A stretch of DNA of 64,000 bases from Diacronema lutheri (taxonomy: Eukaryota; Haptophyta; Pavlovophyceae; Pavlovales; Pavlovaceae). Positions 45,809 through 51,359 of this stretch are shown piece after piece. The stretch lies in contig JAGTXO010000027.1 in the NCBI GenBank assembly GCA_019448385.1, forward strand, positions 372,001 through 436,000, in the 5' to 3' direction. The notes below the pieces were generated by a model that ran no database searches, was not told the origin of the DNA, and worked only from the letters and a program-made list of their open reading frames with translations. Each line of letters begins with the position of its first letter. Position 1 is the stretch's first letter. The translations under genes and the position numbers were made by a program.

Positions 45809-47350
45809 TCACGCCGGTGTCCACCTCTTCAGCGCATTGAAGTGGAACGAGCGCTTCTCGGCCGTGGATCGGTGTGACGGCTTGTAGTAGGCTGGGCCAG
45901 GCGCTCGCGGGCCTGGCGCCGAGAGAGGGGTGGGTACATGCGAGGGCCGCGTGTCATGCGCGGCATCGGTGCGCATGTCCCGTGCGCGCGCGCGCGCACA
46001 CACGGCGCGCGGCGCACACCGCGCAGCGCGCGGCGGCGGCGCGCGCGCACCATCGCTCTGCCGCTCCCTGCGCGTGGCGCTCATGAAGGCGGAGGAGGAG
46101 ATGGGCGCGCCCTCCTCGGCGGGCGCGAACGTACGCTTGCCCTGCCTGTCGGGTGCGCTGCGCACGTCGTACGCACCGGGGCCAGGGATGTCGACGGCCG
46201 CGCGCGAGAGCCGTTCCGTCGGTCTTCCGAATCGGTCCTGCGCCCGCCACGGCGCGTGGCGCGCGCGGTCCGCGGAGGGGGCTTGCAGTCGGTTGCTTGG
46301 GCGCGGGCGGCATCGGCGCTGTGGGCGCGCATGCCTCGCGCTTCGCGCGGCGCGCACGGTGATTCCCGCGCGGAAGGCGGGCGATGGCCCTCCGATGACG
46401 GCGCGCGCATTTGCCTCGGGCGGCGAGTAGTGGCCAGGCCCAGGCGTGCCCTGTGCGCCGTGCGACGCACGCGCGCCGGCGCAGGCGCCCGCGCCCGCGC
46501 CGGCGCCAGGCGCGCGATGGATGCCGAGCGCCTCCTCGGGTGGTGGCGCGCGCGCCGCGGCATTGCGTGGCGACGTGCGCGAAACGCCTGAGCGGAACGC
46601 CGAAGTCGGCATCCCCCCGCCCGACCGCGCGCCGAGAGAGCCGGACGTAGGCGAGGCATCGTAAGCGCCGGGCCCCGGGCGCACGTCGGACGCAGCGGCA
46701 TTGGCAAAGCGTGGCGCCATGCTCGCGAAGACCGATCGATGGCCGGCGTGCCCATCGCCCGCATCGACCCGCCCGGCGATCGTCGGCGCGGCGTACCCAT
46801 CCCGCATGCTGTGCGAGTCAAGGTGCCGGCCGAGGTTGTACGCGCCTGGCCCGGGCGTCTGCTCGTCCGCGTCCGTCGCGCCGTCCGGGCGAAGGGCGCG
46901 GCCGCCCTTGGGCTGCGCGAACGGCCGCGAGATGGCGCGCACGTCCGAGCCGACCGCCCTGTACGTGTGTACGTCATAGTTGCCTGGGCCAGGCGTACGT
47001 GCCGCGCTGGGTGCCGACGAGCGCTTCGTGCGCGACGCGAAGCCGTTGCCATACCCGCGCTTCCCGATCGACGGCGCATCGCGCAGCACGGTTGACGCGT
47101 GCATGGCGTACGTGCCCGGTCCGGGGTTGTCGTTCACCGTTTCGCCGCCGAAGCGGCTCGCCTGCGAGCCGAAGCCCTCGCGCTCCTTCTTCGGCCCGAA
47201 GAGGACGGTCTCGTACTTGGACGGGATCGTCGCGCTCGGCGGCGGCGGCGCGGCCGGGTGCGTGCGGCCGAGCTGCCCCGACGTGCGTGTGCGCAGGATT
47301 TGCCCTCGGTTGAGTGAGCGCCCCGCTTGCCGGTAGTTGATCTCCTCCAT
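45809..47350 (-). CDS. SHIPPO/STPGR-repeat protein, probably flagellar
   Basis: Three exons (47350-46358, 46237-46051, 45912-45809) give 427 residues; both introns (120 and 138 bp) are multiples of three. Repeats of the sperm-tail PG-rich type recur: NPGPGTYAMH, TPGPGNYDVHTY, TPGPGAYNLGRH, RPGPGAYDASPT, TPGPGHYSPP, IPGPGAYDVRSAP and, across the second splice, PRAPGPAYYKPSHR. Between them are basic segments such as RDAPSIGKRGYGNGF. STPGR proteins such as ODF3 and CIMAP lie along doublet microtubules or the flagellar accessory structures. The N-terminus MEEINYRQAGRSLNRGQ may be a microtubule-end or cap-like motif. Its start faces that of RPA1 with 112 bp between. Confidence 0.85.
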   Translation of the reverse strand: MEEINYRQAGRSLNRGQILRTRTSGQLGRTHPAAPPPPSATIPSKYETVLFGPKKEREGFGSQASRFGGETVNDNPGPGTYAMHASTVLRDAPSIGKRGYGNGFASRTKRSSAPSAARTPGPGNYDVHTYRAVGSDVRAISRPFAQPKGGRALRPDGATDADEQTPGPGAYNLGRHLDSHSMRDGYAAPTIAGRVDAGDGHAGHRSVFASMAPRFANAAASDVRPGPGAYDASPTSGSLGARSGGGMPTSAFRSGVSRTSPRNAAARAPPPEEALGIHRAPGAGAGAGACAGARASHGAQGTPGPGHYSPPEANARAVIGGPSPAFRAGITVRAARSARHARPQRRCRPRPSNRLQAPSADRARHAPWRAQDRFGRPTERLSRAAVDIPGPGAYDVRSAPDRQGKRTFAPAEEGAPISSSAFMSATRRERQSDGARAPPPRAARCAPRAVCARARARDMRTDAAHDTRPSHVPTPLSAPGPRAPGPAYYKPSHRSTAEKRSFHFNALKRWTPA

Positions 47351-47462: not shown

Positions 47463-48947
47463 ATGTCGGTCGCGCTCACGAGCGGCGCCGCGCGCAGCCT
47501 CTTCGCCTCGCTGAACGACGCCAAGGCGGTGGAGGCCGATCTCGCGCATGGGCTGATCGTACAGCTCGTCGACTTCAAGCCGCTGGCCGAGGGCACGCCC
47601 AAGGAGAAGTACCGGTGCGGCGGCGCGCGTCTCGCGTGTGCGCGGCGGTACGCGCGCCCGCGTGCGCCGCGTACGGCGGCCGACGCGCGCGAGCCGCGCA
47701 CTCCGCGCGCCGCACCGCAGCGTGACGCTGTCGGACGGAGTCGCTAGCGCGCGTGCGATGCTGGCGCCCAAGTTCAACGAGCTGTGCAAGGACGGCTCGC
47801 TGCGCGAGAAGGCCGTGGTCAAGGTCACGGGCGCATCCTGCGTTCTGCTCTCGACCGAGGCGCGGTGCGTGCGCGCGCGCGCGATTGCGGCGCGCATGAG
47901 TGCCAGGCGGCCGTCAGGAGCCTTTTAGCCGCGGCGGAGGTTGCACTCGCGCTAGCTCACGCGCCCGCTCGTGCGCGCGGCGGCTCGCTGCGCAGCATCA
48001 TCGTCATCAGTCAGCTCGAAATCATCTCGCCGGGCGGCGAGTCCTACGAGCAGATTGGCTCGCCGACATTGATCACTTCGCTCGCCGAGGACGCTTCCAC
48101 GCCGGCCGCCGCGGTCGACCCACAGCCGCCAGCGCCCGTCGCGCAGCCCACGGCCGCTGTCGACTCGCCGGCCGGCGGAGCGGCCGACGTGCCGATGCCC
48201 AACGCGCAGGGCTGTGCCGAGGCGAACGCTGGTGCGCGCGAGGCTGCCTTCGAGCCTTCGCCCGAGCCTGTGCCCACGTCCGAGCCCGCCGCCGTGCCGC
48301 GTCCGAGCGTGCCAGCGCCCGCATGCGCGTTGGTTGACGGCATCGCGATGCCGGGCGCGACGGTGGACGCGGCGGACGCCGAGCCGAAGATCGAACCGAA
48401 GGCCGAGCCGACGGCCGAGCCGACGGCCGAGCCGAAGGTCGAGCCGAAGGCCGAGCCAACGGCCGAGCCGGTCACCGAGCCGGTGGCCGAGCCTACGGCC
48501 GAGGTAGCGACCGGGGCGGTGGCCGAGGCGGCGGGCTGCGCGGAGGCTGGGCTGAAGCGCGAGGCGGTCGCCGCGACGGCGCCGGAGGCGGGCGCTGCGC
48601 CTGCCGAGCCCGCCCCGCCGCCCACACCCTCGCAGCCCGCTGCGACGCCAATGGACGTGGACGATGGCCGCGCGACGTGCGCGGAGTCGCCCCCAAAGGC
48701 GGCAGCGCCGATCGACGCGGTGGCGGGCACGCTCGACGCGACGCCCGTGCAGAAGCGGCCGCGCGAGTCTGACGCGGCAGGCGAGCTCCTGAGTGGCGGC
48801 GTCGTGCACGAGCTGTACACGGGCGCAGGCAACGCGTCCGCCATCTCTGCCGTCCTCGCCAAGAAGCCCACTGTGCAGATCATCGAGATGCGCCGCATCG
48901 ACGGTACCACAGAGAAATACAGGTGAGGGCGCGGCTCGCGGGCAGCT

Positions 48948-48985
<38 letters not shown>

Positions 48986-49935
48986 GGGTGGGTGGGCGAA
49001 CGGGCGTCTGCGCGCGCCCGTAGCACGCGCCAGCCGGCGCGGGCGCGCCTGCGCTACACGACCCACTGGTAACGACCCACTGGTTGCGACCCACTCGTAA
49101 CGACCCACTGGTTGACCGAGCACGCGCGCCGCGCACGCCCGCCCCACGCCGCGCACGCGCATCCCGCCCCGCCCCAGGCTGACGCTCTCCGACGGCACTC
49201 ACCACATGAACGCCCTCGTGCACCCGCGCTTGAACGCCGAGCTCAAGGGCGTGCAGACACTCGGCACTATCAAGGTCCTCTCGGGCGTGTGCAACATCGT
49301 CTCCGGACGCCGGTGCGCGCGCGGCGCTGCGCACAACTGAGCAGCCCCCTCCCTCCTCCTCCCCTCTTCCCCGACCCGAGCTGCTGCGCGCGCCTGTCCA
49401 CACTATCGCCGACGCGTCGCAACGCCCTCGTGCGCCGCCCGTCGGCGCGCGCGCCGCGCGCGCAGCGTGGTGATCATCAACAAGATCGAGGTCCTCTCCG
49501 CCGCGCCGCTCGCGGCCGGCCGGCTGGGTAGCTCGGTCGACGTCGAGCGCGCGGCGTGCGGGCTCGGTGAGATGAAGACACCGTCGCCGCACGGCGCGGC
49601 CGGCGGCGGGCCGCTCGGCGCCGACCGCGCGCTCGCGGCGGGTCGTGTGAAGCCCATCTCTACGCTCAACCCGTACGGCACGGGGTGGGCGATCAAGGGC
49701 CGGCTCACGCTGCTCGAGGAGCCGCGCTCCTTCTCACGCGGCGACCGCGCAGGCCGCGTGATGACTGTCCAGATCGCGGACGAGGTGCGCGCGCGCCCGC
49801 ACGCGGCCGTGGGCGCGGCTGCGGCCGTGGGCGCGGCTGCGGCCGCGGCCGCGGCGCGGAGCTGCGCCGCGCTGCGCGCGCGCGCACGTGCTCTCGCGTG
49901 CTGGGATGGCACGCGCGCCGCCGCGCTGAGCCGTA

Positions 49936-49988
<53 letters not shown>

Positions 49989-51359
49989 CGGCGCCCCGCC
50001 GCGCCCGATTCACCCGACCCGCGCGCGCCCGACCCGCCCGGGCACGCCCCGCTCCGGCCCCGCGCCGCGCCGCGCGTGCGCGTGCGTGCGCAGTCGGACG
50101 AGATTCGCGCGACGCTGTGGGCAGAGGCGGTGGATGCGTACCTGCCGATCCTGCAGGAGGGCGGCGTCTACCTCATTGCCTCGCCCAAGGCGTCAGCGAT
50201 CAAGATCGCCAACAAGCGCTTCTCGAGCCTCAAGAACCCCTACGAGCTTTCGCTCGGCGCCGACGCGCGCATCGTGCGCTTCGAGGAGGAGGAGGGCGGC
50301 GCGCGGGGGCGGGCGAGCGTGCAGGCGCTGCTCGATATCGTGCCGATCGCGCAGCTCGGCGCCAAGCCGGCGCAAGCCGCGGTCGACGTCGTCGGCGTCG
50401 TGCTCGAGGTTGGCGCGCTGCAGAGGATCACGCGCAAGAACGGCGACGAGCTTACCAAGCGCACGCTCCTCCTCGCCGACGAGTCGGGCGCGAGCGTCGA
50501 GCTGTCGCTGTGGGACGCGCACGCGTCCAAGGTGGACGAGGCGATGGCGCCGGGCGGCAGCGCTGCCGGCGCCGACGGCGTGACGGTCGTGTGCGTCAAG
50601 GGCGCGCGAGTGTCCGAGTGGAACACAAAATCGCTCGCAACCGGCCGCTCGTCGCAGCTCGGCGTCAACCCTGAGCGCGCGGAGGCGGACGCGGTGCGCG
50701 CGTGGTGGGCGGCACGCGGCGGTGCGGGCGCCGCCGGCCTCTCCGCCCTCTCCGTCAACGAGCGCGCGGGCGGCGCTGGCGGGCCCGGTGGCGCTGGCGG
50801 CCTCCCGTCCGAGCGGCTCGAGCTTGCGCAGATCACACTCGACGCGCCGCAGATGCTCCTCGCGTCGGGCGCGGGCAAGCCGCTGTACGCGACGTGCCGG
50901 CTCTGGGTGCAGAAGCTGCAGACCGGCGAGAACCGGCCGCTCTGGTACGCCGCGTGCCCAAAGTGCAGCCGCAAGCTGCACGGCGACGAGGCTGCCGGCT
51001 GGTCGTGCGAGGCGTGCTCGACCTCCATGGCCGACGCCGACTTCCGGTTCATCCTCTCGGCGGTTGCGTGTGACCGCTCGGGCAGGCAATGGCTCTCGCT
51101 CTTCAACGAGACGGGCATCAAGCTGCTCGGTCAGAAGGCCGCCGACCTCAAGGCGCTGCGCGAGGTAGACGAGCACGGCTTTGACGCCGCGCTCGCCGCG
51201 CGCAACTGGGCGGGGCCTTTCTGCGCGCGCTTGCGCGCAAAGAGCGAGGTGTGGAACGGCGAGGCCAAGCTACGCATCAACGCGCTTGACCTGGCGCCGT
51301 GCGATTTTGCCGCCGAGGCGGCTGCCATGCTCGCCGACATCAAGCGCGTCCAGCTGTGA
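47463..51359 (+). CDS. RPA1: Replication protein A large subunit with two N-terminal OB domains
   Basis: Six exons (47463-47614, 47721-47864, 47996-48922, 49178-49312, 49466-49784, 50094-51359) give 980 residues; human RPA1 has 616. OB-F copy 1 (1 to ~120): MSVALTSGAARSLFASLND, EKYR/VTLSDGVASARAML, TEAR/IIVISQLEII. A Pro/Glu/Ala linker with PKxEPxAEPT repeats follows. OB-F copy 2 (~367-470): GVVHELYTGAGNASAISAVL, EKYR/LTLSDGTHHMNALV, SGRR/VVIINKIEVL. Then DBD-A (PISTLNPYGTGWAIKGRLTL, FFS-like KRFSSLKNPYEL), DBD-B (VDVVGVVLEVGALQRITRKN) and DBD-C with a zinc finger, CPKC near 847 and CEAC near 864, ending ADIKRVQL. RPA1 binds single-stranded DNA in replication and repair; OB-F recruits checkpoint partners. 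The two OB-F copies share both intron positions and phases, so they arose by exon duplication. Confidence 0.92.
48949..48984. repeat. Poly-G tract in RPA1 intron 3
   Basis: 36 G starting 26 bp after the donor site. Confidence 0.9.
49937..49987. repeat. Poly-C tract in RPA1 intron 5
   Basis: 51 C in the middle of a 309-bp stop-free intron; if retained it would encode polyproline. Confidence 0.9.

Follow-up and report, generated by a model that had tools for sequence, protein, structure and literature searches.

Does a single RPA1 gene encode two copies of OB-F, the partner-docking domain that is usually present once per RPA1? The question is raised by a stretch of 64,000 nucleotides from the alga Diacronema lutheri (hereafter the window; contig JAGTXO010000027.1, positions 372,001 to 436,000), in which an earlier note, made from the sequence alone, had read two N-terminal OB-F domains within one RPA1 and attributed them to an old exon duplication. 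The portion of PMC8379373 consulted gives the published assembly of this species as 43.503 Mb in 103 contigs with 73.25% GC, and the GC content of the window runs from 0.563 to 0.801 in 2-kb steps. As developed below, the locus quite probably encodes an RPA large subunit whose single chain carries a pair of OB-F domains for partner docking, with a conventional RPA1 encoded on another contig (C46) alongside. This reading builds on an open reading frame, its domains, its intron sites and a second RPA1 gene, all of which are present in the DNA.

A predicted six-exon RPA1 gene with two OB-F domains

The whole gene model was predicted from DNA, with splice sites set by hand and homology in view. 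It consists of the following parts:

47463..51359, + strand: RPA1 gene with the layout F1-linker-F2-A-B-C, six exons, 980 aa
47463..47614, + strand: exon 1, ATG and N-terminal portion of OB-F copy 1, up to EKYR, phase 2
47615..47720, + strand: intron 1, 106 nt, phase 2, counterpart of intron 3
47721..47864, + strand: exon 2, central portion of OB-F copy 1, VTLSDG...STEAR
47865..47995, + strand: intron 2, 131 nt, phase 2, counterpart of intron 4
47996..48922, + strand: exon 3, final strands of copy 1, linker and start of copy 2 (to EKYR)
48923..49177, + strand: intron 3, 255 nt, phase 2
49178..49312, + strand: exon 4, central portion of OB-F copy 2, LTLSDG...SGRR
49313..49465, + strand: intron 4, 153 nt, phase 2
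49466..49784, + strand: exon 5, final strands of copy 2, short linker and first half of DBD-A
49785..50093, + strand: intron 5, 309 nt, phase 0, within DBD-A
50094..51359, + strand: exon 6, remaining DBD-A, DBD-B and DBD-C, stop TGA

All five introns are of the GT-AG type, with phases 2, 2, 2, 2 and 0. Upstream of the ATG at 47463, the nearest in-frame stop is located at 47334 and no in-frame ATG occurs in between. Retention of any of introns 1–4 would result in an early stop, and retention of intron 5 would leave the frame open. The range 47463..49490 proposed earlier for this feature closes within the final strands of copy 2, short of the gene's end at 51359. An EKYR/xTLSDG junction had been described for each copy and is found as EKYR/VTLSDG in copy 1 and EKYR/LTLSDG in copy 2; the intron phases are likewise the same in both copies, all four OB-F introns being phase 2. 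The other junction motif put forward, (A/R)R/xxIIxxxEx, describes copy 2 (GRR/VVIINKIEV) and requires amendment for copy 1 (EAR/IIVISQLEI), where VI stands for II.

Two long homopolymer runs lie within introns, 36 G at 48949-48984 in intron 3 and 51 C at 49937-49987 in intron 5; G-quadruplexes are possible on one strand at these sites, and splicing or assembly may be affected. The RPA1 gene is arranged head to head with a gene for a SHIPPO (sperm-tail PG-rich) repeat protein (45812-47350, - strand), whose likely ATG at 47350 is positioned 112 bases from the RPA1 ATG, making a shared promoter possible.

Pfam identifies Rep-A_N twice in the six-exon frame, confirming the presence of two N-terminal OB-F domains in one RPA1. 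The following domains and regions were delimited in addition to those covered in the text:

47463..48074 (introns included), + strand: OB-F copy 1, residues 1-125, Rep-A_N E 3.3e-15, human RPA70N E 2.8e-6
48075..48779, + strand: linker between the OB-F copies, residues 126-360 (235 aa)
48780..49541 (introns included), + strand: OB-F copy 2, residues 361-478, Rep-A_N E 4.3e-14, human RPA70N E 2.2e-5
50886..51326, + strand: DBD-C, residues 824-970, Rep_fac-A_C E 1.9e-29, zinc-ribbon cysteines 847, 850, 864 and 867

Scanned singly, copies 1 and 2 score 30 and 26 bits above the Rep-A_N cut-off, respectively. The A-B-C core that was expected to follow the OB-Fs is borne out by Pfam and by matches to RPA70: DBD-B appears as REPA_OB_2 at residues 644-751, over cut-off, and DBD-A as tRNA_anti-codon at residues 529-587, barely over cut-off (27.1 vs 27 bits), while the core as a whole matches RPA70 of Ustilago with E 2.1e-61 (211 bits) and of human with E 1.5e-52 (182 bits). 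The four zinc-ribbon cysteines of DBD-C (C4) are invariant in a four-sequence alignment. In that alignment, the predicted protein reads W, F, W and W where human DBD-A and DBD-B carry F238, F269, W361 and F386, the aromatics that stack on DNA. The A-B-C core, the C4 zinc ribbon and the Rep-A_N N-terminus that mark an RPA1 are thus all found, the last of them twice. The usual F-A-B-C layout with a single F, which is not strictly defining, gives way here to F-F-A-B-C; certain RPA1 of plants and algae have lost F, according to the sections of PMC4731521 drawn on here. Judged by the sequence of its core, the window gene is an RPA1, with an unusual F-F-A-B-C layout. An identity as RADX was considered and discarded, the RADX profile reaching 16.5 bits compared with a cut-off of 33.4.

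A conventional RPA1 is encoded elsewhere in the genome

A second, more conventional RPA1 was identified on contig C46 (L003:2948-8140, + strand), with F-A-B-C layout, zinc ribbon and one OB-F. The gene comprises 8 exons, the whole OB-F being contained in a single exon, and, in a model built by hand like that of the window gene, six of its 7 introns begin with GT and one with GC, so that the splice sites of both genes are of matching type. None of these 7 intron sites is shared with the 5 of the two-OB-F gene. The two cores are 31% identical over 482 columns. Against human and Ustilago RPA70, the C46 protein scores 213 and 237 bits, compared with 182 and 211 bits for the two-OB-F protein; C46 is therefore nearer to both, and the two-OB-F gene is the more diverged of the two RPA1 genes. 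The C46 gene further displays a glutamine-rich linker from OB-F to DBD-A, a first intron that is likely GC-AG, and, separating exon 3 from exon 4, an intron of ~1.5 kb that is largely a G-rich minisatellite.

Further RPA components were looked for by six-frame genome searches, which miss intron-split genes and yield counts that are lower bounds; the search with PF04057 missed both OB-F copies of the window. DBD-C (PF08646) returned at least two matches, the window gene and C46, and REPA_OB_2 likewise two. One match each was obtained for RPA3 (PF08661, E 9.8e-5) and for the RPA2 C-terminus (PF08784, E 6.8e-8). When the same profiles were applied to 14 named control genomes, PF08784 matched 7 (2 over cut-off), PF08646 matched 2 and PF16900 matched 1, with no match for PF08661 or PF04057 in any of the 14. 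The RPA2 call is consequently the least certain, since its profile also matches half of the controls. Among possible OB-F clients, Rad9 is found at C82:952938-953927 (- strand), with two TGA inside the match that are perhaps introns, and matches in 2/14 control genomes; RMI1 is also found in the genome and in 0/14 controls. A second Rad9-family match at C37:449450-449926 (+ strand) is weak, at 25.3 bits with neighbours vs a cut-off of 25.

A frame of 825 aa in C6 (L004:4067-6544, - strand) contains a Rep-A_N stretch of 22 bits, under cut-off, which in the genome search reached 25.9 bits (27.3 with neighbours). It was rejected as a third RPA1, as Pfam reports no RPA1 core in it at E up to 0.1. 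The frame displays a weak RADX match (E 1.8e-4) and a match to a solved RADX chain (E 0.005), and it is possible from these similarities that it represents a distant RADX-like protein in the alga.

Shared intron sites point to one intron-bearing OB-F

How did one gene come to hold two OB-F domains? The intron-bearing arginines 51 and 99 of copy 1 align to residues 408 and 453 of copy 2, at the same site and in the same phase. The chance of two out of two intron sites coinciding is about 1.8e-5 for an even draw over 336 aligned nucleotides, or 1.6e-5 with gap-containing alignment columns, a figure that is flattered by splice sites having been set with homology in view. Introns evidently turn over in the RPA1 family, given that C46 has none in common with the two-OB-F gene, and this makes the sharing between the copies informative. 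The introns thus support the origin of the two copies from a single OB-F that carried them. DNA similarity between the equivalent introns was looked for and none was detected.

On whether one copy descends from the other, sequence similarity alone is ambiguous. Copy 1 and copy 2 align with a Smith-Waterman score of 139 (z 23.6; shuffle maximum 46, n=1000), the top one of the 10 pairwise full-fragment scores among five OB-Fs (copy 1, copy 2, C46, C6 and human), followed by copy 2 and C46 with 116 (z 18.6). Identities over the full fragments amount to 34/119 (29%) for the two copies and 33/105 (31%) for copy 2 and C46, and once all are trimmed to a span of 78-84 residues common to them, C46 outscores copy 1 as the partner of copy 2 (113 vs 104). 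The best scorer of copy 1 is copy 2 over full fragments and common span alike. Judged by these scores, copy 2 is as near to C46 as to copy 1, and a designation of the copies as each other's closest kin was dropped because the common span ranks C46 above copy 1 for copy 2. Genome searches with each copy returned its own exons, and with copy 2 also C46; the other copy's exons were not among the matches listed in either search (E up to 1). A maximum-likelihood tree of five rows (copy 1, copy 2, C46, human and yeast) puts copy 1 with the long yeast branch at a support of only 44/5. The test rejects neither a tree constrained to unite the two copies (p 0.513, with a likelihood 0.05 higher) nor any of four further pairings (p 0.16 to 0.26).

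The strong divergence claimed for the two domains is evident in these identities; the age derived from it is not, as neither identity nor tree provides a date and the viral and bacterial/archaeal contigs scanned yielded no confirmed relative beyond this genome. In the same way, duplication is upheld by the shared intron sites, but the exon route proposed for it is not distinguished by them, since a fusion of gene copies fits equally. Copy 1 could stem from a tandem copy of the whole RPA1, or from an older paralog sharing these introns, either of which would have been fused to this gene after loss of its core, a scenario that we regard as a serious contender while considering it the less likely course. 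Such a fusion would account for the long linker, and it would deliver the shared introns just as well; the preference of copy 2 for C46 on the trimmed span and in percentage identity leans in the same direction. The top score of the two copies over full fragments, the lack of any core-domain remnant reported by Pfam in the linker, and the absence of the shared introns from C46 argue against it. The present-day protein would be identical under either route, and the two-OB-F product proposed here is the same for both.

Most basic cleft residues are kept in the two OB-F copies

In human RPA70N, clients are bound via R31, R41, R43 and R91, and mutating these residues cuts binding, as described in the available part of PMC10479964. 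The equivalent positions read K/K/R/A in copy 1 (3/4 basic), R/K/R/R in copy 2 (4/4 basic) and R/R/R/R in the OB-F of C46. The groove positions 33, 57, 87, 93 and 95 are hydrophobic in both window copies, and position 88, a K in human, is S in copy 1, copy 2 and C46. From these residues we infer two usable docking surfaces with differing preferences, that of copy 1 being perhaps weak because the R91 equivalent is missing.

The replacement of R91 by A, together with the strong divergence of the copies, would also suit a copy 1 that has degenerated into a spacer devoid of binding function. We consider this unlikely: the R31, R41 and R43 equivalents of copy 1 remain basic, its groove is still hydrophobic at all five positions, and its Rep-A_N score exceeds that of copy 2.

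The reading frame is continuous between the OB-F copies

The linker is of low complexity, abounds in A, P and E, and contains AEP(K/T) repeats; its charged residues number 37 acidic and 13 basic. It also includes an in-frame Met318 (MDVDDG) and a KRPR stretch at residue 352. The OB-F copies meet within exon 3 (927 nt), which comprises 308 codons without a stop. Taken alone, this lack of stops is modest evidence for one reading frame, as 24/2000 base shuffles of the exon, and one of its antisense frames, are likewise stop-free. All six frames were compared by a coding score, for which a position-specific base model had been trained with exon 6. The sense frame of exon 3 ranks top of six in 5/5 segments, three of which are linker, while the score is negative in all six frames for 5/5 introns. 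In two weaker linker segments, the lead of the sense frame is narrow (0.058 vs -0.086 and 0.131 vs 0.010 bits per codon).

These linker features bear on an alternative in which translation begins at an internal start, such as Met318, yielding a conventional RPA1 of 663 residues with copy 2, the long form being rare or absent. Met318 is indeed in frame ahead of copy 2, with the basic KRPR stretch downstream of it, and the 663-residue product would be near the 616 aa of human RPA1. Exons 1 and 2, however, retain coding periodicity, a good OB-F and their splice sites, and an idle pair of exons should have decayed, rendering this alternative improbable. It is still less credible, to the point of being very remote, that assembly or gene modelling has artificially fused two loci in this GC-rich and homopolymer-rich DNA with its runs of 36 G in intron 3 and 51 C in intron 5, because the junction lies within a single uninterrupted coding exon, the published assembly is, by the extract of PMC8379373 at hand, PacBio polished with Illumina, and the genome searches by copy list no second place for these exons.

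The intron phases also permit other transcripts of the two-OB-F gene. Because introns 1–4 share phase 2 and occupy equivalent OB-F sites, exon skipping keeps the frame: joining exon 1 to exon 4 would result in an RPA1 of 623 residues, and joining exon 2 to exon 5 in one of 626 residues, each with one hybrid OB-F and each near human RPA1 (616 aa) in length. The hybrids are still recognized as Rep-A_N, with 49 bits (exon 1 joined to 4) and 56 bits (exon 2 joined to 5), and the cleft of the exon 1-to-4 hybrid would read K, K, R, R, with all four positions basic. A join of exon 2 to exon 4 is in frame as well, yet it duplicates the middle of the domain. It is conceivable, though doubtful, that the locus functions as a splice-switchable hub whose product alternates between the double-hub form and single-hub forms of other specificity, which, if true, would tune the number of clients recruited per RPA on ssDNA. 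The geometry results from duplication alone and is thus no evidence that such splicing occurs.

Proposed function of an RPA with two docking hubs

Splicing, expression, binding and division of labour are all inferences in what follows. The A-B-C core would bind ssDNA and assemble with RPA2 and RPA3 as usual, to judge from its homology. Through their basic clefts, both OB-Fs, held on an acidic tether of 235 residues, would dock acidic helical motifs of clients, as the cleft residues suggest; the clients would be repair and checkpoint proteins. This would allow one RPA to hold two clients, or a single client with two motifs, for which an ordinary RPA needs two neighbouring molecules. In copy 1, where no equivalent of R91 is present, the range of clients is probably shifted or weaker. 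The C46 RPA1 with its one OB-F would serve alongside the double-hub protein, and a division of labour between them is likely, by analogy with the plant RPA1 groups outlined in the consulted portion of PMC4731521. That the second hub could alter partner load, as had been suggested for this locus, is plausible.

In crystals, peptides of BLM and RMI1 link pairs of human RPA70N domains, and the sections of PMC10479964 used here put forward the idea that recruitment benefits from multivalent contacts when many RPAs occupy ssDNA. Two OB-Fs on a long tether would give that valency from one RPA. The two-OB-F RPA1 would part valency from clustering and would make the multivalency idea directly testable. 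This protein may be a naturally occurring example of a docking hub in duplicate, and it would show that a docking domain, usually present once per RPA1, can multiply while a conventional paralog stays.

Comparison with known systems

No second species with the F-F-A-B-C layout was found in viral and bacterial/archaeal contigs, scans that say little about algae: searching by the RPA1 core gave 11 pattern matches in viral contigs, and the four-sequence alignment gave 40 in viral and 157 in bacterial/archaeal contigs, 0 of which were confirmed in either case. An RPA1 with two OB-F is not described among the literature matches listed, in the parts of these texts that were available, and domain databases may have it.

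Human RPA1 (RPA70) resembles the window gene in its OB-F, A, B and zinc-ribbon C; human RPA70N is the best solved relative of both OB-F copies, and human ranks second best for the core. It differs in having a single OB-F and a length of 616 aa vs 980. The RPA1A, B and C groups of plants and green algae, insofar as they are covered by the consulted part of PMC4731521, comprise several RPA1 per genome with a variable DBD-F, as is the case here; in that account DBD-F occurs singly, has an altered cleft or has been lost, two in one protein not being described in that part. Pot1 of Ustilago maydis, a telomere DNA-binding protein, has also gained an N-terminal OB fold, as far as the extract of PMC9119445 relates, but it belongs to another protein family and its extra fold is not a second RPA1 OB-F.
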